A stretch of 51,647 bases of DNA from Ilumatobacteraceae bacterium (GTDB lineage: Bacteria; Actinomycetota; Acidimicrobiia; Acidimicrobiales; Ilumatobacteraceae), in NCBI GenBank assembly GCA_017859395.1, contig JAFMNE010000013.1, positions 1-51,647 of the forward strand, in the 5' to 3' direction. Of the stretch, positions 1-29,981 are shown piece after piece. The notes beneath the pieces were generated by a model. That model had not been told where the DNA came from and did not search any database. It worked only from the letters and a program-made list of their open reading frames with translations. The position numbers were made by a program, and so were the translations under genes. Every line of letters begins with the position of its first letter. Positions within the stretch are counted from its first letter, which is position 1.

Positions 1-888
1 GGCCGGGAGTTCAAAAGGTGTGCCATCGAGCCCGAGGACCTCTTTTGTGCGGGCGACGTCCTCGGCTCCAAATGCCAAGCCATGGGCAGCTGCGGAGTCG
101 GTGTGGTCGGGGGAGGGGAAGCCGATATGGGTGCGCAATACGACGAGAGTGGGCGCGCCGCGGTGGGCGCGAGCCTGGTTCAGGACGGCTTCGAGCGCAT
201 CGAGGTCCTCGCCGATTTCACCCGCGTCGATGACGTGCCATCCATACGAGCGGAAACGTGCTGCGGCGTCATCGCCGACGGTGAGGTCCGTTGGTCCATC
301 GATGGTGATGCGGTTGTCATCGAATACGCACACCAAGTGGTCGAGGCCAAGGTGGCCGGCCAAGGAGGCGGCCTCGTGGCTGATGCCCTCCATCAAGCAG
401 CCATCACCGGCGATGACCCAAGTGTGATGGTTCACGAGGTCGGAGCCGTAGCGCGCCCGGAGGTTGGCCTCGGCCATTGCCATGCCGACCGCGTTGGCGA
501 TGCCTTGGCCGAGCGGTCCAGTCGTGACTTCCACCCCCGGTGTATGGCCCGCTTCGGGGTGGCCAGGTGTGGCCGACCCCCATTGGCGAAAGGCACGCAG
601 GTCATCGGCGCTGACGGCGTAGCCGTTCAGATGTAGCAGGGCGTATTGCAGGATCGAGGCGTGTCCGGCCGAGAGGATGAAACGGTCGCGGTCACGCCAT
701 GTCGGGTCGCTGGGATCGTGGCGCATCACACGGCTGTACAGCACGTGGCCAAGCGGAGCGAGAGCCATCGCTGTGCCCTGGTGGCCGCTGTTGGCCGCAG
801 CCGGCCCGTCCATGGCGATACCGCGGATGACGGCCACCGCGCGTTCGTCGATAGTTGGATCGAGTCGGTCAGGGGCGTCGCTGCTCAC
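1..888 (-). CDS. tkt: transketolase, N-terminal part (3' end beyond window)
   Basis: Thiamine-diphosphate enzyme of the non-oxidative pentose phosphate pathway that moves two-carbon units between sugar phosphates. The 296 visible codons are the N-terminal pyrimidine-binding half. Visible marks are SGHQGTA near residues 34-40, the ThDP motif GDG at 161-163 followed by a DDNRI stretch, and family-typical spacing. The reading frame runs off the window start, so the C-terminal half is not seen. GTG at 888 was chosen because a TACGCT hexamer ends 7 nt before it and no Shine-Dalgarno is present. The next gene on this strand lies 56 bp upstream. No defect is visible in the part present. Confidence 0.95.
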   Translation of the reverse strand, partial: MSSDAPDRLDPTIDERAVAVIRGIAMDGPAAANSGHQGTAMALAPLGHVLYSRVMRHDPSDPTWRDRDRFILSAGHASILQYALLHLNGYAVSADDLRAFRQWGSATPGHPEAGHTPGVEVTTGPLGQGIANAVGMAMAEANLRARYGSDLVNHHTWVIAGDGCLMEGISHEAASLAGHLGLDHLVCVFDDNRITIDGPTDLTVGDDAAARFRSYGWHVIDAGEIGEDLDALEAVLNQARAHRGAPTLVVLRTHIGFPSPDHTDSAAAHGLAFGAEDVARTKEVLGLDGTPFELPA

Positions 889-895
889 TCGGGCG

Positions 896-901
896 AGCGT
901 A
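896..901 (-). promoter_or_regulatory. -10 element for tkt
   Basis: TACGCT on the minus strand, 7 nt before the GTG start; implies a leaderless mRNA. Confidence 0.5.
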
Positions 902-944
902 GTTGTGGTGACCGTGTGAGATCAGCACCCGTGCGCTACACGGC

Positions 945-1358
945 TCAGGAGGTGGCCGTGTCCAGCAGGGTGAGCGGAACGGTGGTGACCGCGCCATGCC
1001 CAATGCGGCAATGCGCGTACACGGTGCCGGGTTCATCGAAGACGATCTCTGCCCTGACCAGGCGGTAGGTGAAGCGTCCAGGTTCCACGGTGAACGGTGC
1101 CACGTTACGAGCGATGGGTTCCGCGTCGGTGACCGTGGCCGGGTCGGGGTCGCGGGTGACGGTCACTTCGAACACGCCAGACCCGTCACCGTCGGGTGGG
1201 CAGTGGATGAGGGCAATCAGGTGCGGTTCGACGCTGACGGGGGGTGGGGTAGGCGAGGCGAACGAGAACATGATGCCGGTGAGATCGATACGAGTCGATG
1301 GTCCGTCAACCTGGCGAAGGTCGATGTTCTCGGCGAAGAGGGCGGAGATGATCTGCAC
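945..1358 (-). CDS. small beta-rich protein, DUF6941-like
   Basis: A 137-residue protein of unknown function, soluble, with no signal peptide or membrane segment. Alternating hydrophobic strands with an ...EPGRFTYRLV... and ...DEPGTVYAHC... pattern resemble the short actinobacterial DUF6941 family; this is a pattern-level resemblance only. GTG at 1358 is chosen because TACGGT lies 6 nt upstream, the spacing seen for many genes here; an upstream TTG at 1388 would add 10 residues. It sits between sodX and tkt on the same strand, 39 bp after sodX. No function can be assigned. Confidence 0.65.
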   Translation of the reverse strand: MQIISALFAENIDLRQVDGPSTRIDLTGIMFSFASPTPPPVSVEPHLIALIHCPPDGDGSGVFEVTVTRDPDPATVTDAEPIARNVAPFTVEPGRFTYRLVRAEIVFDEPGTVYAHCRIGHGAVTTVPLTLLDTATS

Positions 1359-1364
1359 ACCGTC

Positions 1365-1370
1365 ACCGTA
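1365..1370 (-). promoter_or_regulatory. -10 element for the DUF6941-like gene
   Basis: TACGGT on the minus strand, 6 nt before GTG 1358. Confidence 0.45.
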
Positions 1371-1397
1371 GCGGTGCACAGCTCGCAACGGCTTTGG

Positions 1398-1760
1398 TCA
1401 CATCCAACGGCGGGGGACAGCGATGATGACCAGCCACGAGGGCTGCAGGGAAACCGGCCCGAAGTCTGCCGAGTCGCGCCCGAGCGGATTGTCGGCGGTC
1501 ACCCACCACCGGCCGTCGTCGCATCGGTAGCCAAGACGTTTCACGAGGAGCATGTCGTTGTCGGGATGCGCGACGATTCGCCGCTGATGGGGCCGTGCCC
1601 GCGGCCAGCGGACACCGATCACCCCTTGGCCCGGCTCAAGACCGGGTCGCATCGAGTCCTCGACGACGATGAAACGTCGGATGGGGAAGCGGTCGCTGGA
1701 CACCATCGATGCGAGGTGGGCACACACACGACGGAGGCGACGCAGCAGATGCATGGCCAC
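1398..1760 (-). CDS. sodX: nickel superoxide dismutase maturation peptidase (S26 type)
   Basis: Predicted processing peptidase that removes the short NiSOD propeptide to expose the N-terminal His of the nickel hook. The roughly 120-residue protein carries the S26 Ser-Lys dyad: catalytic Ser in VEDSMRPGLEPG, Lys in DMLLVKRLG, followed by a DNPLGRDSADFGPV box typical of this family. It lacks an obvious membrane anchor, as in other SodX proteins. It is divergent from sodN with 74 bp between starts, the standard arrangement. GTG 1760 is preferred because TACCCT is 7 nt upstream; ATG 1754 is the alternative. The frame is open further upstream but would enter sodN. Confidence 0.88.
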   Translation of the reverse strand: MAMHLLRRLRRVCAHLASMVSSDRFPIRRFIVVEDSMRPGLEPGQGVIGVRWPRARPHQRRIVAHPDNDMLLVKRLGYRCDDGRWWVTADNPLGRDSADFGPVSLQPSWLVIIAVPRRWM

Positions 1761-1767
1761 CGACGGA

Positions 1768-1773
1768 AGGGTA
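1768..1773 (-). promoter_or_regulatory. -10 element for sodX
   Basis: TACCCT on the minus strand, 7 nt before GTG 1760. It overlaps a plus-strand TAGTGT (1772-1777) that could serve sodN. Confidence 0.45.
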
Positions 1774-1777
1774 GTGT
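1772..1777 (+). promoter_or_regulatory. possible -10 element for sodN
   Basis: TAGTGT about 57 bp before the sodN ATG, leaving a leader that contains a GAGGAG ribosome-binding site near 1821-1827. It shares bases with the sodX -10, so the two promoters may compete. Confidence 0.35.
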
Positions 1778-1834
1778 GCCCAACGACAACGACAGCGCTG
1801 CGGCGCTGCCCCCGACACACCCGAGGAGAACACG

Positions 1835-2257
1835 ATGATCGGACGACTGTTCGCATCCGCCACACCCGTTCACGCGCACTGCGACCTGTATTGCGGTGTC
1901 TACGACCCCGCTCAGGCTCGTATCGAGGCCATGTCGGTCGTCAAGACCGCACAGAAGTACCACGACTCTGATGATGCGGTGTTCCGCGACCGCTGCATCC
2001 TCATCAAGGAACAGCGTGCCGAGGAGGCCAAGCACCACCTCATGGTGCTGTGGGCCGACTTCTTCGCGCCGCCCCATTTCGAGCAGTACCCGCAGCTGCA
2101 CGATCTGTTCTGGAAGGCCATCCACCAAGCTGGTGAGGCGAAGAAGTCGATGGACCCTGCTGTGGGCGAGCAACTCGTTGCCTACATCGATGAGATTGCC
2201 GAGATTTTCTGGGCCACCGAGAAGGGCCAGCAGATGGGGATGTATCCCCCCGCCTGA
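1835..2257 (+). CDS. sodN: nickel-containing superoxide dismutase
   Basis: Cytoplasmic homohexameric NiSOD that dismutates superoxide to O2 and H2O2. The 140-residue precursor has a 14-residue propeptide; the mature N-terminus starts at His15 in HCDLYCGVYDP, giving His1, Cys2, Cys6 and Tyr9 of the nickel hook. The residue at hook position 5 is Tyr (TAT codon) where the usual motif has Pro. The remaining helical bundle matches the family in length and sequence, e.g. AQARIEAMSVVKT and EEAKHHLMVLW. A GAGGAG ribosome-binding site precedes the ATG. The maturation peptidase gene is divergent immediately upstream. Confidence 0.95.
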   Translation: MIGRLFASATPVHAHCDLYCGVYDPAQARIEAMSVVKTAQKYHDSDDAVFRDRCILIKEQRAEEAKHHLMVLWADFFAPPHFEQYPQLHDLFWKAIHQAGEAKKSMDPAVGEQLVAYIDEIAEIFWATEKGQQMGMYPPA

Positions 2258-2305
2258 TCATGGTGCGGTGCCCACTGCCGGCCCGCGACTGAACTGATAC
2301 TCACG

Positions 2306-2333
2306 CGATGCCCGGGGTTCGCCCCGGGCATCG
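2306..2333 (+). terminator. GC-rich hairpin with UUCG loop between convergent genes
   Basis: A 12-bp perfect stem (CGATGCCCGGGG and its complement) closed by a TTCG tetraloop, 48 bp after the sodN stop and 46 bp before the convergent desaturase stop. No T-tract follows on either side, so this would be the T-less type common in actinomycetes. It could act in both directions. Confidence 0.7.
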
Positions 2334-2379
2334 TCGTGTCCGGTGTTGGGTGCGCTGGGGGTCGTGCGATGGAGTGGGC

Positions 2380-3138
2380 TCAGGTGTCGGCGGCGACGCG
2401 TATGCCGTCGAGGCGCACGCGGGCGAGTCGCATCCAGGTCATCGGTTTGATGAGCAGCCACCCCAGGTCGATCTCGTACCAGCGGTGAGCGAGCTTGGCC
2501 GATGTGGGCGCCGCATGGTGGTTGTTGTGCAGCCCTTCGCCAGCCGTCAGCAGGGCCAGCCACTGGAGGTTGGTGGCTGAGTTCGCGTATGGGCGACGGC
2601 CGAAGTGATGGCCGATCGCATTCACCGCCGATGAGGCGGCGATGTAGTAATTGATGTGCACCACTGCGGCGACCGCCGCGGTCCACGGGCCGACCAACAT
2701 GACCAAGATGGCGATACCGCATCCGAGTCCGAGCAGGGCATGGTCGAAGAGGATGCGATCGGCGCGGGTCGGGGGAAGGTCACGGGCGTAACGCGCAACG
2801 TTTGTGGTGTCTCGGGCCGCTCGGCGGTACATCGCATAGTTCCGTAACTGCACCTGCCACCACCCGTGGACAGCAGGCGAGTGGGGGTCGTCAACTGTGT
2901 CGGTATGGGCGTGATGCTTGCGGTGGACGGCCACCCACTGGCGCACTCGAATGCCGGTTGTCAGCCACAGGACAACGGTGAAGGCCCAACGCGCCGGCGA
3001 CGAGAATGTGATGGCGCGGTGCGACAATCCGCGATGGAGGAACACCGTGGTGGCGAGATTGGCAATGGTGGTGATGGCAACACCGATCACCGTGCCGAAA
3101 ATGAGATGCCCGAGGAACGAATCAACCGCATCAAACAC
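2380..3138 (-). CDS. membrane fatty acid desaturase (acyl-CoA delta-9 type)
   Basis: Di-iron integral membrane desaturase that introduces a double bond into acyl chains. All three histidine boxes are present: HRGLSH (residues 35-40), HRKHHAHTD (72-80) and HNNHH near the C-terminus, with hydrophobic helical stretches before box 1 and between boxes 2 and 3. At 252 residues it is a short bacterial form. GTG 3138 was chosen because TACTGT ends 7 nt upstream; a longer frame would run into the divergent TetR gene. The neighbouring TetR gene and a shared inverted repeat suggest lipid-responsive repression, which is inference. Confidence 0.85.
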   Translation of the reverse strand: MFDAVDSFLGHLIFGTVIGVAITTIANLATTVFLHRGLSHRAITFSSPARWAFTVVLWLTTGIRVRQWVAVHRKHHAHTDTVDDPHSPAVHGWWQVQLRNYAMYRRAARDTTNVARYARDLPPTRADRILFDHALLGLGCGIAILVMLVGPWTAAVAAVVHINYYIAASSAVNAIGHHFGRRPYANSATNLQWLALLTAGEGLHNNHHAAPTSAKLAHRWYEIDLGWLLIKPMTWMRLARVRLDGIRVAADT

Positions 3139-3145
3139 AGTTCCG

Positions 3146-3151
3146 ACAGTA
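3146..3151 (-). promoter_or_regulatory. -10 element for the desaturase
   Basis: TACTGT on the minus strand, 7 nt before GTG 3138. Confidence 0.45.
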
Positions 3152-3160
3152 GCAGGTTCC

Positions 3161-3178
3161 CTACCGACCAGTAGGTAG
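3161..3178. promoter_or_regulatory. probable TetR operator
   Basis: Inverted repeat CTACC-N8-GGTAG centred between the divergent desaturase and TetR starts (61 bp apart). It lies just upstream of both -10 hexamers, where binding would block both promoters. Repression by the adjacent TetR protein is inferred from position and symmetry. Confidence 0.5.
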
Positions 3179-3186
3179 TCCTGCGC

Positions 3187-3192
3187 TACGAT
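3187..3192 (+). promoter_or_regulatory. -10 element for the TetR gene
   Basis: TACGAT, 6 nt before ATG 3199. Confidence 0.5.
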
Positions 3193-3198
3193 GCGACG

Positions 3199-3882
3199 AT
3201 GTCGTCGGTGCTTCCCCCTGAAGCTCACGCACACGGCGTGGGCGGCTCCGACGACACCCCTGGTGGTGTGCGGCCCATGCGTGAGCAGATCTTGGCTGAG
3301 GCAGTGCAGTGTTTCGCGGCTGACGGGTACGACGGTTGCTCCCTGAATGACATTGCGGCTGGCGTCGGGATTCGTCGTCCGAGCCTGCTCCATCATTTTG
3401 CGTCCAAGGAGATCCTCTACCAGGAGGTGTTCGAGCGACTGCTCTCGGACTGGTTCGCCGGTGTTGAATCTGCGGCAACCCAGCCGCTGACCGGTTGGGA
3501 CCGGGTGGAAGCGCTCCTTGGCGCAGGCTTCGATTTTTTTGCGGCGAATCCGGACTATGTCCGCTTAGTGCGACGTGCTGCTATCGACGGAGGGTCGCAT
3601 CTCGCCATCGATCTATCTGGGGTGTTGCGTCCGCTCTTCGATCGAGCTGCCGGTTACTTCGCCGCAGCGATGGAGTCCGGTGAGTTCACCCACCATGATC
3701 CGCGGCAACTGATGATTACCGGATACGGCGCTCTGCTCACCTATTTTTCTGATTCGGCCTTCCTCGATGGGCTCCTCGATCGTGACCCGATGGAGGCGGC
3801 AGCGCTCGACCAACGGCGTCAACACGTGCTCTCGTTCTTCCGGGCTGCGCTGGTCTCAGAGGGCGGGGCCAGCGGACCATGA
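3199..3882 (+). CDS. TetR/AcrR family transcriptional regulator
   Basis: A 227-residue one-component repressor. The N-terminal helix-turn-helix spans about residues 28-75 ([17 protein letters not shown], then [20 protein letters not shown]), followed by a helical ligand-binding domain rich in aromatic residues ([16 protein letters not shown]). About 27 residues precede the DNA-binding domain, a little more than usual; the internal Met just before REQILAE is an alternative start. It is divergent from the desaturase across an inverted repeat and lies 46 bp upstream of an acyl-CoA synthetase gene. It probably senses a fatty acid or acyl-CoA and controls these neighbours; that is inferred from context. 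Confidence 0.9.
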
Positions 3883-3915
3883 AACGGTGACCGGTTGTGC
3901 ACGCGACGTGCTGGC

Positions 3916-3921
3916 TAGCGT
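3916..3921 (+). promoter_or_regulatory. -10 element for the acyl-CoA synthetase gene
   Basis: TAGCGT, 7 nt before ATG 3929. Confidence 0.4.
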
Positions 3922-3928
3922 GGGTCCC

Positions 3929-6088
3929 ATGTCACACCACGAACCCTCCGGTGGCCGCACGCTGTCTGAAGCCCAGTCGCGAGATCTCCTTGCACAGGCC
4001 GGTGTGAGATTTGCCCGACTGCGACAAGCCACGACACCCGAAGAGGCCGTCGCGGCGGCTCAGCAGGTGGGTGGACGCGTCGTGGTCAAACTAAATGGGG
4101 ATCGGATCGCCCATAAGTCGGAGCGCGGTCTAGTGCGGGTTGATGTCAGCGGTGACGAGGCCGTGCGTCGCGCCGCCGAGGAAATCCTTGCTGCGGTGCG
4201 CCCCGATGACGGTGACGTCAATCTGCTCATTGCCGAATATGTCGCTGGGCTGCGTGAACTCATCGTGGGTATGGTGCACGACCCCCAGTTTGGGCCGGTT
4301 GTGATGCTCGGAATCGGAGGCGTCCTCGCTGAGGCGATCGCCGACGTCGGATTCCGCCCAGCGCCGCTCGACGTGGCCGCTGCTCACGAGCTGATCAACG
4401 ACCTCTCTCTCCAGGATCTCCTCGGCGAATTCCGCGGCGATGCGGCTCTCGACCGTGATGCGCTGGCCGACCTGTTAGTAGCGGTTGGATCGCTGGCTCA
4501 TGACCGCACCGATATCGCGAGTGTCGACCTCAACCCGGTCATCATCACCACATTGGGTGAACCGGTCGCGGTGGACGCACTTGTGGAGATGGCAGACGCG
4601 TCGGTGGCACCGGCCGCGGAACGCCCCCGTATCGATCCAGAGCGTTTTGCCGCCTTGTTCGACCCCAAGGGTGTGGTCATCACCGGGGCATCGACGCATC
4701 CCGGCAAGTTCGGATTTGTGAGTCTTCACAACATCTTGGCGTCGGGGTACCGCGGTGCGGTTCATGCCACAAATCTGAAGTGCGAAGAAGTGCTGGGTAT
4801 CAATACCGTGGCCGATGTCGCCGACATTCCCGACGGCGCAGCCGACCTTGCATTCGTGTGTACCCCCGCAGCCACCAACCCGGACCTGCTCCGGGGACTG
4901 GCAGCGCGCGGGGTCCGCGCAGCGTTTTTGACATCGGCCGGGTACGGCGAAGCCGGTGAACAGGGTCGGGCGGCTGAAGCTGAATTGGTGGCGTTGGCTG
5001 ATGAACTCGGCATTTTGCTGGCCGGTCCCAATGGGCAGGGCGTGGTGTCGACGCCATCGTCGCTGTGCGCCCAGATCGTCGCGCCATATCCGCCAGCAGG
5101 CACGATCGGGGTTGCCAGCCAATCCGGCAACTTCGTGTCGAGCTTTCTCAACCTTGCACGAGCGACTGGTGTGGGCGTGAGCCGCGCAGTGTCGGCGGGC
5201 AATGCCGCAGCGGTCGGGGTCGGCGACTACCTCGGCTACTACGCCGATGATGAGGCGACGTCGGTGGGCTTGGCCTACCTCGAAGGTATCACCGATGGGC
5301 GGGCGCTGATGTCGCAGTTGTCGCAGGTGACACCGAAAATGCCGCTCGTGGTGCTCAAAGGCGGAGCGACCGCGGGCGGTGCCCGGGCTGCGGCGAGTCA
5401 CACCGGTGCGCTCGCGGCCGATGATCGTGTCTTCGACGGCGTGTGCCGAGCCATAGGCGTCTCGCGCGTTCACTCGGTCGAGGAGGCGTTTGACGTGGCG
5501 GCAACCTTTGCAACGCAGCCACTTCCACAGGGTCCGCGAGTAGCAGTGCTGACCACCGCCGGCGGTTGGGGTGTGGTCACCGCCGACGCCATTACACGCG
5601 AACGCGACCTGGTTCTGGCCGATCTACCTGACGACCTCCTCGTGGCTATTGATGCCGAACTGCCATCGCGGTGGAGTCGCAATAACCCGGTGGATTGCGC
5701 TGGCGGGGAGACCCGCGACACCATCCCCACCGTCATGGGCTTAATCGCGCGTCATCGGGACATTGACGCCGTGATCTACCTCGGGCTCGGTATTCAGTCG
5801 AATCAGGCTCGACTGATGCGCGAGGGCGAGTTCCATCCCGATCACGGCATCGGCCGGATCGTCGAGTATCACGAACGCCAGGATGCGCGGTTTGCCGAGG
5901 CGGCGGCGGAGTTGAGCGACGAGACCGGAAAGCCGATTCTCGTGGCGACCGAACTTGCTGTTGCAGACCCGGAAAATGCTGGCCCTGCCGCGGTGCGCGC
6001 CACCGGACGTATGTGCTACGCGACGGGCGATCGCGCGGTGCGGGCGCTTGGCCATCTGGTTCGGTATGCCCAATTCCTTGGACGGTGA
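3929..6088 (+). CDS. ADP-forming acyl-CoA/acetyl-CoA synthetase, fused beta-alpha form
   Basis: A 719-residue NDP-forming acid-CoA ligase converting acyl-CoA, ADP and phosphate to acid, ATP and CoA, or the reverse. Order: ATP-grasp domain (about 15-230; VVVKLNGDRIAHKSERG), Rossmann CoA-binding domain (about 245-345; FDPKGVVITGAST), then two succinyl-CoA-ligase-like flavodoxin domains. The phosphorylated His lies in ASHTGALAADD. The order is the reverse of the acetyltransferase-linked Pat-type proteins. ATG 3929 follows a TAGCGT hexamer at 7 nt. The substrate is not predictable from sequence. It heads a run of genes with gaps of 0-15 bp or overlaps ending near 12346. Confidence 0.88.
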   Translation: MSHHEPSGGRTLSEAQSRDLLAQAGVRFARLRQATTPEEAVAAAQQVGGRVVVKLNGDRIAHKSERGLVRVDVSGDEAVRRAAEEILAAVRPDDGDVNLLIAEYVAGLRELIVGMVHDPQFGPVVMLGIGGVLAEAIADVGFRPAPLDVAAAHELINDLSLQDLLGEFRGDAALDRDALADLLVAVGSLAHDRTDIASVDLNPVIITTLGEPVAVDALVEMADASVAPAAERPRIDPERFAALFDPKGVVITGASTHPGKFGFVSLHNILASGYRGAVHATNLKCEEVLGINTVADVADIPDGAADLAFVCTPAATNPDLLRGLAARGVRAAFLTSAGYGEAGEQGRAAEAELVALADELGILLAGPNGQGVVSTPSSLCAQIVAPYPPAGTIGVASQSGNFVSSFLNLARATGVGVSRAVSAGNAAAVGVGDYLGYYADDEATSVGLAYLEGITDGRALMSQLSQVTPKMPLVVLKGGATAGGARAAASHTGALAADDRVFDGVCRAIGVSRVHSVEEAFDVAATFATQPLPQGPRVAVLTTAGGWGVVTADAITRERDLVLADLPDDLLVAIDAELPSRWSRNNPVDCAGGETRDTIPTVMGLIARHRDIDAVIYLGLGIQSNQARLMREGEFHPDHGIGRIVEYHERQDARFAEAAAELSDETGKPILVATELAVADPENAGPAAVRATGRMCYATGDRAVRALGHLVRYAQFLGR

Positions 6089-22912: not shown

Positions 22913-23311
22913 GTGTTCAACCTGCAGGGCGGCGAGCTGATCATCATCGCCGTGCTGGCTCTCGTTGTGCTGGGACCTGAGCGACTTCCCGATGCGATGC
23001 GGCGACTTGGGCGTGCTCTCGGGCAGTTGCGCCGAATGGGAAATGAAGTGACCGAGGAGTTTCGCTCTGCGGTCGCGGAGCCAATGGATGACCTGCGTTC
23101 CGCTGTTGTCGACCCGGCTCGGGACCTACATGATGCCGCCCGCGGCACTGCAGAATCGGTCCGCGACGGTATGGCCGACCCCTCAGACCCGTCAACGCCG
23201 GTCTCGGGTGATGCTCCCGGACATCAGCCAGGTGTAGACGACCACGGCGCTGCCGCTGATGGCGATATGGCACCAGATGGTGATGATGCGGGCCCGGGTG
23301 GCGATCAATGA
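22913..23311 (+). CDS. tatB: Sec-independent translocase subunit TatB
   Basis: Substrate-receptor component of the twin-arginine translocase. The 132 residues have a short membrane helix (about 5-21), the LGPERLP motif that favours TatB over TatA, an amphipathic helix (about 25-55) and a long acidic, Gly/Asp-rich disordered tail. It overlaps tatC by ATGA, forming a tatBC pair. A separate tatA is expected elsewhere. Confidence 0.88.
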   Translation: MFNLQGGELIIIAVLALVVLGPERLPDAMRRLGRALGQLRRMGNEVTEEFRSAVAEPMDDLRSAVVDPARDLHDAARGTAESVRDGMADPSDPSTPVSGDAPGHQPGVDDHGAAADGDMAPDGDDAGPGGDQ

Positions 23312-24090
23312 GTCGTCGCGATGCATCGGCAACAATGTCAATCACTGGCCACTTGGCGGAGTTGCGCAGTCGGATCATCAAATCTGCTGTCGCTGTCCTC
23401 GCTGGAGTGATCGTGGTGGTCGTGGTGTACGACCGCGTCCTCACGTGGTTGACGGCGCCATATGTCGCCCTGTGCCGACGATCACCAGCGGACTACTGCG
23501 GTATGTCCTATGACACGATCGCCGATGACGTGAACCTGTTCACCCTCGACCCGGTGGAGGGCCTGACCACGCGGTTGAGGGTGGCGACCTATGGGGGAGT
23601 GGTCCTCGCGTTGCCGATTCTTTTGTGGCAACTGTGGCGGTTCATCGTGCCGGCACTGCATCGTCGTGAGCGCGGTTTCGCTATCGGGTTTGTGCTTGCG
23701 ACCGTGATCCTGTTCGTCGCCGGTGGTTTGCTCGCCTACAGCACGCTCGATCGTGCCCTTGAGTTCCTCATCGGATGGTCTGGCGAAGGAGTCGACCAGG
23801 CGTTCCGGGTCAGTGCCTATGTCCGCCTCGTCACACTCATGATCGTCGCATTTGGCGTCGGCTTTACCGTGCCAGTTCTGTTGGTGTTTTTGCAACTGGT
23901 GGGCATTCTGACGCCGCGAAGCCTTGTGAGAGGGTGGCGTTACGCCGTCGTGGGGACGGTCTTTATCGCCGCCGCCATCACGCCAAGCGGTGATCCCATC
24001 TCGCTGGCCACTCTGTCGGTGCCGATGGTGGCGCTCTATTTCGCAGCCGCGGGTATCGGCCGGCTGCTCGTGCGTCGCCGTGATGAGTGA
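23308..24090 (+). CDS. tatC: Sec-independent translocase subunit TatC
   Basis: Six-helix membrane core of the Tat translocase that binds the twin-arginine signal. The 260 residues show the cytoplasmic N-terminal HLAELRSRIIKS, the periplasmic insertion with two cysteines (CRRSPADYCG), LPILLWQLWRFIVPAL and the ITPSGDPIS segment. It overlaps helY by 8 bp. The tatC-helY order is the same as in mycobacteria. Confidence 0.95.
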   Translation: MSRRDASATMSITGHLAELRSRIIKSAVAVLAGVIVVVVVYDRVLTWLTAPYVALCRRSPADYCGMSYDTIADDVNLFTLDPVEGLTTRLRVATYGGVVLALPILLWQLWRFIVPALHRRERGFAIGFVLATVILFVAGGLLAYSTLDRALEFLIGWSGEGVDQAFRVSAYVRLVTLMIVAFGVGFTVPVLLVFLQLVGILTPRSLVRGWRYAVVGTVFIAAAITPSGDPISLATLSVPMVALYFAAAGIGRLLVRRRDE

Positions 24091-26707
24091 TCACGTGCGG
24101 CGGTCATTTCTCGCCGCACGCGGAGTCGATGCCGATCGCTTCCAAATCGAGGCGATGGACGCGATCGATGAGGGCCGGCATGTGGTCGTCGCCGCACCGA
24201 CGGGCAGTGGAAAGACGTTGCCCGCCGAGTACGCCATCGAACGGGCCATTGCCGCTGGCCGACGTGCCTTCTACACCACGCCGCTCAAAGCGCTGTCCAA
24301 CCAGAAGTACCGAGACCTCGTTGAGCGCCACGGCGAGGATGCGGTCGGGCTGCTGACGGGTGATACGAGCCACCGTCCCGGCGCCGATGTTGTGGTCATG
24401 ACGACCGAGGTGCTGCGCAACATGATCTACGCGGCATCGCCAGATATTGACGAGCTGGCGGTGGTCGTGCTCGACGAAGTCCATTTCCTCCAAGACGCCT
24501 ACCGGGGACCGGTCTGGGAGGAAATCATCATCCACCTACCCGACCACATTGCCTTGGTCGCGCTGTCGGCAACGGTGTCGAATAGCGGCGAGTTGGCCGA
24601 ATGGATCTCGACGGTTCGCGGACCCACGGACTCGGTTGTGGAGACCCGGCGACCAGTTCCGCTCGAGGACCATTTCATGGTGGAGGACCTGACCAATGAT
24701 CGGGTGGTCTTCGAGCCGATGTTCCTCGACGGGGGCCAGAACCGGTCGCTATCGCGACTTGATGAGTCGGCAGGTCCACGCCACCGTGGTCATGACCGCC
24801 GCCGCCGTGCACCGAATGCGCGGCGATTGGCAACCCCGGATCGCGTCGAGGTGATTGAGCAGTTGCGACGCCGCGACATGTTGCCTGCCATCGTGTTCGT
24901 GTTCTCGCGAGCGCAGTGCGAGCAGGCGGCGACGAACTGTGTGGATGCTGGGTTGGTGCTCTGCGATGACGATGAGCGATTGCGGATATCGGAGATCGTG
25001 TCCGAGCGTCTTGCGGGCCTTGACCCCGCTGATCTCGAGGTTCTCGATGCCGCCGGGTTCGAAATGAGGCTCGCGGCTGGCATTGCCGCACACCATGCGG
25101 GAATGGTGCCGCCATTCAAAGAGGCGGTGGAGCGCTGTTTCGCAGAGGGTTTGGTCAAAGTCGTATTCGCCACCGAGACCCTTGCTGTGGGCGTGAATAT
25201 GCCGGCGCGCAGTGTGGTGATCGAACGCACCACGAAATACAACGGGGATCATCACGTCTCGTTGTCTGCGGGTGAATTCACGCAATTGACCGGGCGGGCC
25301 GGCCGACGGGGGATCGACGAGATGGGGGCCGCGGTCGTTCTGTGGAGCCCATGGGTGCGGTTCTCGGCGATTGCTGATCTTGCCGCCAGTCGCTCGTTTG
25401 CTCTGCGCTCGGTGTTCCGTCCGACGTACAACATGGTGGCAAATCTGGTGCGCCGTCACGACCATGCAACAGCACGACGCCTGCTCACAATGTCGTTCGC
25501 CCAGTTCCAAGGCGATGCTGAGGTGGTGCGGCTCGAAGGTCGCCTCCAGCGTCGCCGCGACCGTTATGACGAGCTGCGTGCAACAGCGACGAGCCCATAT
25601 GGGGATATCGACGATTACCGCACCGGTGGTCGTGTGGCGCCCAGTGATCCGATCGCCGCGGGTGTCGCAGCGTTACGACCGGGCGATGTCATTCATGCTC
25701 GGGTGGGCGGATACCGAGGCCCGGTCGTTGTTGTGGCCACAGCAGCTCGATCGGCGGGGATCCGCCTTGATGTTGTGACCGCGCCTGGTCGGGTTGCGTC
25801 GTTGTCGACGCGTGACTTCGATGCGCCACCGGTGGTGGCGGGCCGCGTGCAGCTTCCCGGGGCCTATACGCCGCATCGGCGCGAGTACCGCCAAGAGGTT
25901 GCGCGGCGGCTCAAACGGGTCGATCTTCGGCCACCGGGAGCACGCAGCCGTCGCAGCGCTGCCAGTCATCCACAGGGGCATCCAGTGGAAGCCGACCCGG
26001 ATTTGCGGCGTCGCCTGCGTGCTGCCGACGACGCCGATCGTGTTGCGCGGGACATCGCCGAGATCGAGCGCCGTGTGGGGGAGCGGCGCGGGTCGCTCGG
26101 ACGTGACTTTGATGCGGTTGTTGGAGTGCTGGCCGAACTTGGGTACGTCGATGCCTCGGAGTGGTGCCTGACGGACGATGGTGATGTGATCGCTGGCTTG
26201 TTTCATGAGAGCGACCTCTTGGTTGCCGAGGCAGTTGGCCGAGGTCTCTTCAACGGTCTGTCAGCTCCTGAAGTGGCAGCCCTCGCATCATGTGTGGTGT
26301 ACGAGGACCGCAGCCCCGAGCCGCCACCGCCAGCGCGCCATCCAACTGCTGAGGTTGCCCGCCGAGCGCGTTCGCTGGAGCGTCTACACGCTGAACTCGT
26401 CAAACTGTCCGACCGGTATGGAGCCCCTCGTCCGCGCGATCCCGACGGGGGATTCAGCGACATTGCCTTTGGCTGGGTCGATGGTGAATCATTCGCCGAT
26501 CTCGTCGACGGTACCGACCTGACCGGCGGCGATTTCGTGCGCACGATTCGCCAAGTAGTCGACCTGTGCGAGCAGCTCTCGCAGGTCGCACCCGACGAGG
26601 CGGTGGCCACGGCTGCGGCGGCTGCGGTGGCTGCGGGAGTCCGCGGCGTTGTCGCTGATTCCGCCGTGGTGCAACCGGCACCGGAAGATGGGGGAGCACA
26701 GCAATGA
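24083..26707 (+). CDS. helY: Ski2-like DEAD/DEAH-box RNA helicase HelY
   Basis: An 874-residue superfamily 2 helicase of the Ski2/Mtr4 type, likely acting on RNA. Motif I APTGSGKT (near 42-49), motif II LDEVHFLQD, motif III ALSATVSNS and motif VI QLTGRAGRRGID are intact. The C-terminal third contains winged-helix and helical-bundle regions typical of actinobacterial HelY and ends in an Ala-rich tail. ATG 24083 overlaps tatC. The next gene overlaps its stop by ATGA. Confidence 0.93.
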   Translation: MSDHVRRSFLAARGVDADRFQIEAMDAIDEGRHVVVAAPTGSGKTLPAEYAIERAIAAGRRAFYTTPLKALSNQKYRDLVERHGEDAVGLLTGDTSHRPGADVVVMTTEVLRNMIYAASPDIDELAVVVLDEVHFLQDAYRGPVWEEIIIHLPDHIALVALSATVSNSGELAEWISTVRGPTDSVVETRRPVPLEDHFMVEDLTNDRVVFEPMFLDGGQNRSLSRLDESAGPRHRGHDRRRRAPNARRLATPDRVEVIEQLRRRDMLPAIVFVFSRAQCEQAATNCVDAGLVLCDDDERLRISEIVSERLAGLDPADLEVLDAAGFEMRLAAGIAAHHAGMVPPFKEAVERCFAEGLVKVVFATETLAVGVNMPARSVVIERTTKYNGDHHVSLSAGEFTQLTGRAGRRGIDEMGAAVVLWSPWVRFSAIADLAASRSFALRSVFRPTYNMVANLVRRHDHATARRLLTMSFAQFQGDAEVVRLEGRLQRRRDRYDELRATATSPYGDIDDYRTGGRVAPSDPIAAGVAALRPGDVIHARVGGYRGPVVVVATAARSAGIRLDVVTAPGRVASLSTRDFDAPPVVAGRVQLPGAYTPHRREYRQEVARRLKRVDLRPPGARSRRSAASHPQGHPVEADPDLRRRLRAADDADRVARDIAEIERRVGERRGSLGRDFDAVVGVLAELGYVDASEWCLTDDGDVIAGLFHESDLLVAEAVGRGLFNGLSAPEVAALASCVVYEDRSPEPPPPARHPTAEVARRARSLERLHAELVKLSDRYGAPRPRDPDGGFSDIAFGWVDGESFADLVDGTDLTGGDFVRTIRQVVDLCEQLSQVAPDEAVATAAAAAVAAGVRGVVADSAVVQPAPEDGGAQQ

Positions 26708-27294
26708 TCACTCCGGGCCATGAGTGGGCGCGGCGCGACGGCTCGGTGTCTGACGCGACCGTGACGAGCGACAGGGAGTTGGCGGCTGCAATGGGAAGTA
26801 CCGTCGTGCTGCGTGGCGGTGATGTGCACCGTGCCCTCGGGGCGCCGATGGGTGTGCCCGGCAACGCGACAGTGGCGGTCGATCTCATCGAGGTGTGTGC
26901 AGAGGGCACCACGATTGCAGTCGCGGCGTCATATGTCTTGATCGGTCGTGCTCCGCATCGGCTCGGCCGATTGGTCGGGGCCTGGCATGTGCTGACCAAC
27001 GCCGGTTTCGTCGGTCGGTATGAACTCGCTCCGCGTGCACATCCCGGCGACGGGGCAGCAGATCTGTTTAGTGTGGCCTCGTCGATGTCGCTACGCCAGC
27101 GCATCGGGGCCGCACGACGGTCACGCCTTGGTGCTCACCTGCCGCATCCTGCCCTTCGCGTTCGGCGGGTGCGCGACTATGTGCACGATCTCCAGCGGGG
27201 TGAGCGAGTGTGGGTGGATGGCCATCGCGTCTCGTGCCGTATGGCTTCACTGCAGTTGCGGGTTGTGCCCGAGGCAGTGCACGTGCGGCTCTGA
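26704..27294 (+). CDS. YegS/diacylglycerol-kinase C-terminal-domain-like protein
   Basis: A 196-residue protein resembling only the C-terminal beta-sandwich half of lipid kinases of the DAGK/YegS fold: LVGAWHVLTNAGFVGRYEL, ADLFSVASSMSLRQRI, GAHLPHPALRVRRV and WVDGHRV, where the last parallels the DGE turn of that family. No kinase nucleotide-binding GGDGT motif is present, so catalysis is unlikely on its own. The assignment is a pattern judgement. Start overlaps helY by ATGA. A membrane or lipid role is inference. Confidence 0.65.
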   Translation: MITPGHEWARRDGSVSDATVTSDRELAAAMGSTVVLRGGDVHRALGAPMGVPGNATVAVDLIEVCAEGTTIAVAASYVLIGRAPHRLGRLVGAWHVLTNAGFVGRYELAPRAHPGDGAADLFSVASSMSLRQRIGAARRSRLGAHLPHPALRVRRVRDYVHDLQRGERVWVDGHRVSCRMASLQLRVVPEAVHVRL

Positions 27295-27325
27295 GAGCAT
27301 CCACGTCGGCTCGGCCGAGCGATCG

Positions 27326-27331
27326 TACGAT
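27326..27331 (+). promoter_or_regulatory. -10 element for thyX
   Basis: TACGAT, 8 nt before GTG 27340. Confidence 0.4.
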
Positions 27332-27339
27332 GTGATGTC

Positions 27340-28935
27340 GTGACCTACGTCGCCGAGGAGTTCACCCCCGATGAGGCCGATGTCCTGCGGCGATACTTCA
27401 CGAATCTCGACCGCCCGGTGTTTGCCCTCGTCAACTTGCCCGAGGTGGTGAAGGGCGCGTTGTTCGCCCGCTATTCACGATCGCCAAAGAGCCTTCGCCG
27501 GTTGTTCCTCGATGAGTTCGTGGGCGAACTCGATGTTGACGGCGATGCAACTGTTGACGCCACCGTCGGGCTCGATCGCGCCGAGTCGCTCTACGAAAAA
27601 GTATTTGTCGAGTACGGCGACGATTCGGTCGCGCAGCTCGGTGGTGTGCATTTGGCCTGCGAGCAGGCATCGAATTTGCTCACCAAGGTGCTGGAATGGG
27701 GGCGGCTCATGAGCTACCTCGAGCAGAGCACCCGGTACATCTCCTATGACGCACGCTTCGGTGGGCGGTATCGCTTCCATCGCGACCCAGCGCTTCTGGC
27801 GAGCCGTCACGGCACCCGGTACATCGGTGAGATGGACCGCATGTTCGACAACTATTCGCAGGCCGCGCAGATAGTGACCGACCACGTCCGGCGCACCGTG
27901 GTGCAGCAGCCTGGGGACTCCGATTTCGTCTATCGGCAGGCCACGCGGGCCAAGGCACTCGATGCCGTCCGAGGAATGCTGCCTGCGGCTGCCACGTCGA
28001 ACGTCGGTATCTACGGCAGTGGTCAGGCCTATGAAGCTCTGCTGTTGCGCATGCGAGCCCATCCGCTTCCCGAGGCCCGCGAATACGCCGATCAGATGCT
28101 CGTCGAGTTGCGCAAAGTCATCCCGAGCTTCTTGCGGCGGGTGGACGTTCCCGAACGTGGCGGCGTTTGGTCCGAGTACCTCAGCAATGTGCGTGGCGAC
28201 ACTGAAGAACTTGTCGATTCATTATTTGGACGCACGCCGGTGGACTCGGTCGCGGAGGTCGAGCTGGTTGATTTTGATCCCGAGGCCGAGGACAAACTGC
28301 TGGCGGCGATCTGCTACCCACACTCCCACCTCGGCGAGCGCCAACTGTCCGCGCTGGTGGCGGGGCTGGGTGCCGAACAGCGGGCGGCGCTGTTGCGCGC
28401 TGCAGTGGGTGATCGCACAAACCGGCGTCACCGTCCGGGCCGGGCATTTGAGCGCAGCGATTACCGCTTTGACATCCTCAGCGACTACGGCGCATTCCGC
28501 GACTTGCAGCGGCACCGCATGTTGACGATCGACTGGCAGCAGCTGACGCCGAATCACGGCTTTGTCCGGCCGGAGCTGGTGGATGAGGCGGGTGCGGGTC
28601 CGTTGTTTGATGAATCGATGGAGCGTTCAGCCGAACTCTTCGATGTATTGCGGCCTGATTTTGACCAACAAGCGCAGTACGCCGTGGCAATGGCGTACAG
28701 GCTGCGATATTCGATGCAGTTCAATGCTCGTGAAGCCATGCATCTGATCGAATTACGATCGAGCCCGCAAGGCCATCCGTCGTATCGGCGCGTAGCACTT
28801 GAGATGCACCGATGTATCGCCGAAGTCGCTGGTCATCGTGCTATTGCGGATGCGATGACCCACGTGACCCATGAGGCACCAGAGCTTGAGCGCCTTGATG
28901 CGGAGCGCCGAATCGCTGCGCGTCGTGCCACTTGA
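27340..28935 (+). CDS. thyX: two-domain flavin-dependent thymidylate synthase-like protein
   Basis: A 531-residue protein made of two ThyX folds in tandem (about 20-260 and 300-525), where ordinary ThyX is one domain of 220-250 residues. ThyX makes dTMP from dUMP with methylene-tetrahydrofolate, FAD and NADPH. The family signature RHRxxSxNExSxRY is divided. Domain 1 keeps the second half (R122, S125, E128, S130, R132, Y133) without the RH. Domain 2 keeps R391-H392-R393 but has Thr, Trp and Gln at the later positions. Domain 2 keeps FNAREAMHLIELR; domain 1 has a weaker equivalent. It is probably active as a composite site; whether it is the only thymidylate synthase cannot be judged. Confidence 0.85.
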   Translation: MTYVAEEFTPDEADVLRRYFTNLDRPVFALVNLPEVVKGALFARYSRSPKSLRRLFLDEFVGELDVDGDATVDATVGLDRAESLYEKVFVEYGDDSVAQLGGVHLACEQASNLLTKVLEWGRLMSYLEQSTRYISYDARFGGRYRFHRDPALLASRHGTRYIGEMDRMFDNYSQAAQIVTDHVRRTVVQQPGDSDFVYRQATRAKALDAVRGMLPAAATSNVGIYGSGQAYEALLLRMRAHPLPEAREYADQMLVELRKVIPSFLRRVDVPERGGVWSEYLSNVRGDTEELVDSLFGRTPVDSVAEVELVDFDPEAEDKLLAAICYPHSHLGERQLSALVAGLGAEQRAALLRAAVGDRTNRRHRPGRAFERSDYRFDILSDYGAFRDLQRHRMLTIDWQQLTPNHGFVRPELVDEAGAGPLFDESMERSAELFDVLRPDFDQQAQYAVAMAYRLRYSMQFNAREAMHLIELRSSPQGHPSYRRVALEMHRCIAEVAGHRAIADAMTHVTHEAPELERLDAERRIAARRAT

Positions 28936-28993
28936 CAATTGGCCATGTGACAGACGTCGCACGATCGAGGGTGCGCGGCGGTGCTGTGTGGTC

Positions 28994-28999
28994 TACCAT
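28994..28999 (+). promoter_or_regulatory. possible -10 element for the poly-Asp gene
   Basis: TACCAT 41 bp before ATG 29041; the leader holds GAGGA about 10 nt before the start. Confidence 0.35.
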
Positions 29000-29040
29000 C
29001 CGGCGCAACCGCACTACACCCGACCGAGGACGCGTATTTC

Positions 29041-29538
29041 ATGGCTGACGACATCGACAATGAGGATCTCGAAGGTCTCGACGTGAGTGCCGAGGCCGAC
29101 GCCGAGGACGAGGACATCGACGACGGCGATTTCGGCGGCGGCGACGAATTTGACGGCGACGACGACGTCGAGTTCGGCGGTGACGACGATGATGCCGACG
29201 ACGACGACGATGACGATGACGATGACGATGACGAATCGTCCACCGAATCGCGCCGCCGTGCGGCCAATGACGGAGACGATGACGACGAGGACATGGTCAA
29301 TCCCGATGATGTCGAGGCCGATCTTGACACCATCTTGAAAGACCGTATGGTCACGGTCACTGTCGACGACGATGACGAAGAAGAGACCCCGGTCGTTGAG
29401 GAACGTGGTGAAGTTGTTGAGGGTGTGAAGCCCAAGCGTGCCGATGAGCAGATGTGTCCAAGCTGTTTCTTGCTGGTGAGGTCCAACGCGCCTGCTTGCC
29501 CAGTGGGCGACGACGACTGCCCGATCCTGTCGGCTTGA
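29041..29538 (+). CDS. highly acidic protein with C-terminal zinc-binding segment, DUF4193-like
   Basis: A 165-residue protein whose first ~115 residues are extremely Asp/Glu-rich, including a run of 12 Asp residues, and are predicted disordered. The C-terminal 40 residues (PKRADEQMCPSCFLL...CPVGDDDCPIL) hold four cysteines and resemble the short DUF4193 family of actinobacteria, in which a CxxCF element follows a QADEF-like strand. DUF4193 proteins are about 100 residues, so the acidic half is an extension. Function unknown. The stop overlaps the start of the GNAT gene (TGATG). Confidence 0.75.
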   Translation: MADDIDNEDLEGLDVSAEADAEDEDIDDGDFGGGDEFDGDDDVEFGGDDDDADDDDDDDDDDDDESSTESRRRAANDGDDDDEDMVNPDDVEADLDTILKDRMVTVTVDDDDEEETPVVEERGEVVEGVKPKRADEQMCPSCFLLVRSNAPACPVGDDDCPILSA

Positions 29539-29981
29539 TGGAACAAGTCGTCCGCCGGGCAGTCCCGGAGGACCATCCCGTTCTCAACGAACTTGAAAAC
29601 GAGGCGCGTGCCGCGGTGCTCGAGACGCGCGGTGGTGCGCGGTGGTGCGAGGTTGTGCCCGCGCGGCGCGGGCGCTGGTTCGACGATGGTGCGCAAGTGT
29701 TCGTCGCCGAGATTGATGCGGTCGGTGTTGGCTATCTGGTGTTGATCCCAGGGGAGGTGGCGGTGGTCGAATCGGTGTTCGTCACTCCCGGTGCCCGTGA
29801 GGTTGGCTTTGGGGACTGGTTGCTCGAGGCGGCGCTCTCTTCAGCGGTTGAGGAAGGGTCACGCCTGTTGGAGGGCACTGCCCTTCCTGGCGATCGCGAT
29901 CTGAAAAATTTGTTTGAACGGGCTGGCATTGTCGCCCGGGCGATCACGGTGTCGGTGCCGCTACGCCCCTCGCAGTCGTGA
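29538..29981 (+). CDS. GNAT-fold acyltransferase-like protein
   Basis: A 147-residue single-domain protein with the GNAT strand order: an N-terminal helix pair (RRAVPEDHPVLNELENEARAA region), the central strand GVGYLVLIPG, the beta4 strand VVESVFVTPGAREVGFGDWLLEAAL summarised by VESVFVTPG and the acetyl-CoA pyrophosphate loop REVGFG, and a final strand region. The loop lacks the full RxxGxG/A consensus (REVGFGD), close enough to bind CoA. Target unknown. It is translationally coupled to the acidic zinc protein. Confidence 0.75.
   Translation: MEQVVRRAVPEDHPVLNELENEARAAVLETRGGARWCEVVPARRGRWFDDGAQVFVAEIDAVGVGYLVLIPGEVAVVESVFVTPGAREVGFGDWLLEAALSSAVEEGSRLLEGTALPGDRDLKNLFERAGIVARAITVSVPLRPSQS

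Follow-up and report, generated by a model that had tools for sequence, protein, structure and literature searches.

A tandem two-domain ThyX protein of an Ilumatobacteraceae bacterium divides the ThyX signature motif between its domains

The flavin-dependent thymidylate synthase ThyX is a homotetramer with four equal active sites, each of which uses three subunits, according to a review of solved structures (PMC6514825). In M. tuberculosis numbering, the review assigns the grip on FAD to the RHR motif of subunit A together with Ser71 and Arg190 of subunit B. The contacts with dUMP come from Arg95 and Arg199 of subunit A and from Arg87, Ser105 and Arg107 of subunit C, and Tyr108 of subunit C forms the lid. 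For PBCV-1 ThyX, PMC3498832 describes an inhibitor bound in the pocket for dUMP that contacts Ser88 from one monomer and, from the other monomer, Gln75 and Arg182; by our own reading, Arg182 is the equivalent of R174 in ThyX of T. maritima, the numbering of which is used below. By alignment count between M. tuberculosis and T. maritima, Arg95 corresponds to R78, Arg199 to R174, Ser105 to S88, Arg107 to R90, Tyr108 to Y91, Ser71 to T55 and Arg190 to R165. Because the four equal sites each use three subunits, a mutation in an ordinary ThyX hits all roles of a residue.

In 2009, Valas and Bourne (PMC3224940) noted duplicated ThyX proteins in Chloroflexi and in a few further species and termed them uncharacterised. 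The passage on them gives no residues, structure or mechanism, and we infer that they may be the same thing as the tandem protein described here. Thermus thermophilus Thy1 (PDB 6j61) is a 270-residue chain with an extra C-terminal domain. The tandem shares with it the extra C-terminal sequence, and domain 2 of the tandem gives its highest structural similarity score with this chain (Z 17.0, tied with others), but the tandem fuses a whole second ThyX domain. The thaumarchaeal ThyX-MsrB protein also contains a fused ThyX-like domain that lacks a signature residue (Ser88); it differs in that the fusion partner is a methionine sulfoxide reductase and in that no dTMP synthesis is predicted, as given in the portion of PMC6211008 on this protein. 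A literature search of open-licence papers found no account of a divided ThyX motif and no paper on ThyX in Acidimicrobi- taxa.

The tandem thyX gene lies in a contig of an Ilumatobacteraceae bacterium (JAFMNE010000013.1), which was analysed as one stretch of 51,647 nt, referred to as the window. The gene and its features, all on the + strand, are the following.

27340..28935, +, tandem thyX gene, 531 aa, GTG start; the alignments of relatives begin at about residue 1
27574..28128, +, domain 1 (Thy1 profile positions 36-191), E 1.7e-14, above the curated cut-off
27625..27627, +, S96, equivalent of T. maritima T55, the FAD contact from a neighbouring subunit; invariant in 57 aligned rows
27697..27705, +, W120-G121-R122, the domain 1 place of R78-H79-R80, with RH lost
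27721..27738, +, E128-Q-S130-T-R132-Y133, the later ThyX half-motif (dUMP side); E128, S130 and R132 invariant in 57 rows
27970..27972, +, R211, equivalent of R147; Arg in domain 1 of 149/149 rows
28270..28830, +, domain 2 (Thy1 profile positions 4-189), E 1.0e-15, above the curated cut-off
28510..28518, +, R391-H392-R393, the earlier ThyX half-motif (flavin side); present in 120/120 tandems, R391 invariant in 57 rows
28525..28551, +, T396 to P404, the domain 2 place of the later half-motif, with E, S, R and Y lost
28756..28758, +, R473, equivalent of R174, the dUMP contact from the RHR subunit; 149/149, invariant in 57 rows

The surrounding gene order (window positions 23308-29981, + strand) is tatC, a DSHCT-type helicase gene, a 196-aa ORF, the tandem thyX, a 185-aa ORF and a GNAT acetyltransferase gene. 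The 185-aa ORF product is acidic and contains a run of Asp; neither this ORF nor the 196-aa ORF gave a Pfam match at E 1.

The Pfam profile Thy1 (PF02511) matched the 531-aa protein over two stretches (E 5.9e-32, 111.4 bits, cut-off 24.8). In the whole-genome search either half alone exceeded the curated cut-off, which places the protein in the Thy1/ThyX superfamily. The whole protein scored 41.7 bits against the NCBIfam ThyX equivalog TIGR02170, below the cut-off of 87.9, and the full RHRxxSxNxxSxRY motif was present within neither domain. The tandem is a member of the Thy1 superfamily; with the single-domain motif missing and the equivalog score below the cut-off, it does not count as a canonical ThyX. 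The first-pass annotation of this DNA had described the signature as complete in neither half, with RHR at 391-393 of domain 2 followed by Thr, Trp and Gln in place of S, E and S. The letters of the ORF and the two Thy1 domains agree with this description: the motif region of domain 1 reads W120-G121-R122-L-M-S125-Y-L-E128-Q-S130-T-R132-Y133, and T396, W399 and Q401 follow R391-H392-R393. In T. maritima numbering, each of R78, H79, R80, R174, E86, S88, R90, Y91, R147, S55 and R165 is present in domain 1 or domain 2 of the window protein; the H53 place holds Asp.

For comparison we collected 120 distinct tandem proteins, the window protein included. One of them (L003) is frameshifted close to its end; the remaining piece of 505 residues is counted among the 120 and was left out of alignment A1. 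Four more proteins gave 124 rows of the Actinomycetota type, and with 5 Bacillus-type and 20 phage-type rows the set comprised 149, drawn from Actinomycetota, one Bacteroidota record, plasmids of Bacillus and Paenibacillus, and phages; an out-of-frame repeat from a Paenibacillus plasmid (L205) was left out. The Actinomycetota rows were found with seeds other than those used for most viral contigs (below) and with whole-length profiles, and tblastn gave five rows from phages and three from plasmids. The three subgroups were mapped onto canonical ThyX by hhalign profile comparison with probabilities of 95.8-99.0, that for Actinomycetota-type domain 1 being 95.8.

In the 120 tandems, R122, E128, S130, T131, R132 and Y133 of domain 1 and R391, H392, R393, R464, E471 and R473 of domain 2 were invariant, and Q129 was found in 119. 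The first-pass annotation had listed R122 to Y133 with S125 as retained in domain 1 and RH as lost. The letters of the window protein match, and residue 121, at the H79 place, was G, P or S and never H in the 120 tandems; S125, however, was not conserved (A in 66, S in 51 and G in 3), and the R78 place (residue 120) still held R in 33 of the 124 rows, next to W in 90 and K in 1. In domain 2, residue 403 was never R and residue 404 never Y or F, with S at 401 in 8 rows, and no S-x-R-Y/F occurred within the 25 residues that follow the domain 2 RHR in any of the 124 rows. An RHR...S-x-R-F string in domain 2 of 6/124 rows lies some 25 residues N-terminal to the genuine RHR, with a different spacing; it was taken as chance. 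As the same residues are invariant in 120 distinct proteins, the split is not due to chance or sequencing error, and a frameshift or a pseudogene as its cause is likewise ruled out.

Over all 149 rows, R78 and R174 were always found in domain 2, H79 in 148 and R80 in 145, the remaining four rows (Bacillus-type) having RHNR. E86, S88, R90, R147 and S55 were found in domain 1 of every row, and Y91 in domain 1 of 148. Both half-motifs were kept together in the 149 aligned tandems, with at most one exception per residue besides the RHNR forms, so that the co-conservation proposed as a check by the first-pass annotation was observed. The partition is imperfect: the R80 place is also R in domain 1 of 124/124 Actinomycetota-type rows. 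In the gapped hhalign register, the R174 place of their domain 1 is R237 in 111/124, whereas the gapless register puts M or L there; the domain 1 register near R165 and R174 is uncertain owing to gaps in the hhalign alignment. In an alignment of 57 tandems with identities down to 17%, the only invariant columns were R47, S96, E128, S130, R132, R391 and R473. All of these other than R47 map to canonical ThyX positions tabulated over the 149 rows.

Viral contigs yielded further tandems. Both half-motifs were present in order in 76 of 83 unique proteins from this source, and a relative with the entire motif in one domain, which the first-pass annotation had named as evidence against its reading, did not occur (0/83). 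The seven exceptions were a fragment (L202), five RQR forms, with the Tyr replaced by Ala in one of them, and another protein with only this Ala replacement. The six variants other than the fragment (L190, L239, L246, L247, L257 and L250, with Ala for Tyr in L250 and L257) are natural variants of the composite site. The seeds for most of these rows held the STRY half-motif, so the STRY half was partly selected for in the viral set; only the RHR half was an unbiased test in most such rows. Taken over all sets, the division of the motif between the halves is real and old.

The absence of a full motif from either domain could also mean that the fused ThyX has degenerated and lost its synthase activity, the cells using thymidine salvage or an undetected synthase. 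The genome of the window itself encodes a thymidine kinase and, at an assembly completeness of 95%, may contain a gene that the contigs miss. A decaying protein should not show one set of complementary residues unchanged across 149 sequences, and phages and plasmids also retain the tandem. Furthermore, 57/103 tandem genomes of the class lack both a thymidine kinase match (PF00265, the only salvage kinase family searched) and a ThyA match. We consider a degenerate protein highly improbable.

The arrangement of the solved sites accounts for the split in another way. That ThyX sites are built from several subunits, as the first-pass annotation had stated, is confirmed by the cited passages of PMC6514825 and PMC3498832: the RHR and SxRY arms of one solved site come from different subunits, and for this reason the two halves of the tandem are complementary. 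By alignment, the role of subunit A would fall to domain 2 and that of subunit C to domain 1. For the subunit B role the evidence is mixed: S55 always lies in domain 1, and R165 and H53 vary by type. R165 is in domain 2 in the Actinomycetota type and in domain 1 in 5/5 Bacillus-type and 14/20 phage-type rows; because it changes domain between types, the role of the third subunit is not cleanly assigned. The H53 place in domain 1 is Asp in all 124 Actinomycetota-type rows and is kept in the Bacillus and phage types. Asp at this place is compatible with ligand binding, since T. maritima H53D has been solved together with FAD and dUMP (4kas).

Assembly, FAD binding, catalysis and the number of sites can be proposed from this partition. 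Domain 2 would give the part of the FAD-owning subunit (R78-H79-R80 and R174), and domain 1 would give the parts of the neighbouring subunits, namely ExSxRY and R147 on the dUMP side and S55 next to the FAD. A pair of chains would make up a pseudo-tetramer with two live sites instead of four, the two sites needing an RHR of domain 1 being dead. The chemistry would be that of ThyX, with transfer from methylene-tetrahydrofolate to flavin N5 and on to C5 of dUMP and release of tetrahydrofolate. The first-pass annotation had suggested that the halves complement each other in a pseudo-dimer; the complementation is supported by the alignments, and the simple pseudo-dimer gives way to a likely dimer of two-domain chains. 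In a variant of this composite-site synthase, the T55/R165 role would be taken by the second domain 2 of the dimer and not by the other domain 1. The conserved R464 (R165 place) and E371 (E58 place) in Actinomycetota-type domain 2 (124/124 each) fit this variant; S55 in domain 1 of 149/149 rows and both H53 and R165 in domain 1 of 5/5 Bacillus-type rows speak against it, although 4 of these 5 rows also have an aligned H at the H53 place of domain 2. We consider this variant rather unlikely.

No solved structure of a tandem ThyX was found in the structure searches. An AlphaFold2 model from 57 sequences, viral tandems included, reached a pLDDT of 89.5 and a pTM of 0.88 for the whole chain, the latter value suggesting that the two domains are confidently placed in the prediction; a model from 18 close relatives (pLDDT 52.4) was not used. 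Model residues 304-510 (domain 2) aligned with a solved Thermus ThyX with Z 17.0 and an rmsd of 2.3 over 182 residues. At most, residues 301-518 aligned with whole ThyX chains (Z 14-17, rmsd 2.3-3.6). Domain 2 therefore has a predicted ThyX fold by structure alignment of the model, and domain 1 is assigned to ThyX by sequence profile only, with the same order of helices and strands as domain 2 in the model. Compared with canonical ThyX (T. maritima TM0449, M. tuberculosis, PBCV-1), the tandem is alike in fold (domain 2, Z 14-17), in the Thy1 match of both domains, in the presence of the main dUMP- and FAD-contact residues in the chain, in its genomic role and in the near absence of DHFR. It differs in its two fused domains per chain with complementary site halves, in the expected two live sites per pseudo-tetramer in place of four, and in the Asp at the H53 place of the Actinomycetota type.

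The genome from which the window derives has 2.25 Mb in 95 contigs. A whole-genome search found no further PF02511 match and no ThyA, so that a second intact ThyX or ThyA, which the first-pass annotation had considered as evidence against a working tandem, did not turn up. The thymidine kinase makes salvage possible in this strain. We also searched 148 genomes of the class. The tandem profile matched 103 of them, which equals the number with PF02511 outside family f14; in four (G016, G111, G115, G145) the tandem is present only in parts, which sit at the ends of contigs or are spread over two of them. The 28 genomes of f14 (0.7-1.1 Mb) have a single ordinary ThyX of about 220 aa, which is not a tandem, and 17 of the 148 genomes have no PF02511 match. 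One genome (G119) has a single-domain ThyX match (C8:5203-5817) besides the tandem.

Among the 110 class genomes of good quality (at least 90% complete, at most 5% contaminated), 101 had PF02511 and 93 the tandem; the nine without PF02511 all had full-length ThyA (E 2.2e-118 or better). Tandem, ordinary ThyX and ThyA together account for 110/110 of these genomes, and the eight genomes with neither ThyX nor ThyA are 73-87% complete. A ThyA match beside the tandem occurred in only 3/103 genomes (full length in G114, in two pieces in G009, weak in G063). With G119 also set aside, the tandem was the sole synthase detected in 99/103. By way of counterpoint, a ThyX relative can be dispensable, as the C. 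glutamicum entry 3ge9 states in its title. A PF00265 thymidine kinase was present in 43/103 tandem genomes, three of the matches being near the cut-off.

DHFR was found in 10/148 genomes and in none of f14. Six of the nine ThyA-only genomes encode it, adjoining thyA in all six, versus 2/100 tandem genomes without ThyA (G099, G016; Fisher p 1.1e-6). The ThyX-type reaction yields tetrahydrofolate (PMC6514825), and the rarity of DHFR with the tandem is what would be expected of an enzyme that makes no dihydrofolate. The remaining two DHFR genomes, G114 and G009, have both the tandem and ThyA and look like transitional states of gene replacement; the two ThyA pieces of G009 lie about 1 kb apart. 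By gene content, the tandem replaces ThyA in the genome and DHFR is dispensable.

These data also bear on whether the tandem could be a composite-site flavoenzyme that methylates or hydroxymethylates another pyrimidine and is not the thymidylate synthase of the cell. ThyX relatives with a changed substrate exist: PolB acts on UMP, as described in the part of PMC5954106 on this enzyme. The Asp at the H53 place and the missed NCBIfam equivalog cut-off would be in line with such a role, and a function with modified bases is conceivable in phages. It would leave unexplained that tandem, ordinary ThyX and ThyA cover all good-quality genomes, that DHFR is nearly absent with the tandem, and that the equivalents of the dUMP contacts S88, R90, R78 and R174 are invariant in the 57-row alignment. 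We consider another substrate improbable. The tandem is very probably a working flavin-dependent thymidylate synthase of asymmetric build, with composite sites.

The eighteen relatives of the window protein (64-98% identical) stem from metagenome assemblies labelled Acidimicrobiia, Ilumatobacter(aceae) or Actinomycetota/Actinobacteria. In the phylum, 129/396 genomes matched the tandem profile, 12 of them as weak matches of ordinary ThyX, which leaves 117 tandem genomes, a few of them with fragments. Four of these 117 (G063, G114, G009 and, with a fragment, G266) are among the 117/396 genomes with any ThyA match. In one genome (G185), tandem ThyX is encoded twice at full length, each copy on its own contig. 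Nine named plasmid records matched, five from Bacillus and one each from Paenibacillus, Parabacteroides, Euzebya and Miltoncostaea, and in the six records read the product label is FAD-dependent thymidylate synthase. The record of Parabacteroides distasonis, a Bacteroidota species (L149, NZ_OY725790.1, 277 kb), encodes an Actinomycetota-type tandem that is 43.7% identical to the window protein; either transfer or a wide older distribution may have placed it there.

Among phages, the window protein matched only Tunturiibacter phage Tunturi_5, the protein of which matched 15 further records. Four of these 15 (Microcystis, Microcoleus and two Vibrio phages) were read and have one CDS with both halves each; unfused half-genes in the Vibrio phages, suggested by two features under the match, are ruled out, as a single CDS spans both halves. 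In Tunturi_5 (L150, positions 1-4071), genes for dUTPase and dCMP deaminase are found close to the tandem thyX, and their products would provide dUMP for the tandem ThyX.

In a tree of 62 tandem domains and 11 ordinary ThyX proteins, all 31 domain 1 rows grouped together (100/100), as did all 31 domain 2 rows (99/97). The tree has long branches and unsettled bootstrap values, with weak support for the ordinary ThyX group (73/24). The grouping would fit one ancestral duplication and fusion, in which the division had already been made, followed by spread among actinobacteria, plasmids and phages. The tandem probably represents a second, asymmetric ThyX lineage that arose once by duplication and fusion and split the roles, domain 2 gripping the flavin and domain 1 binding the substrate. 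In Acidimicrobiia and further lineages of actinobacteria this lineage would serve as the main thymidylate synthase, and phages and plasmids carry it as well.

A natural enzyme with divided roles would allow each role to be tested separately in one chain. The tandem would also exemplify how duplication can turn an obligate multi-subunit active site asymmetric. Numerous uncultured actinobacteria, and some of the large phages, apparently rely on the tandem.
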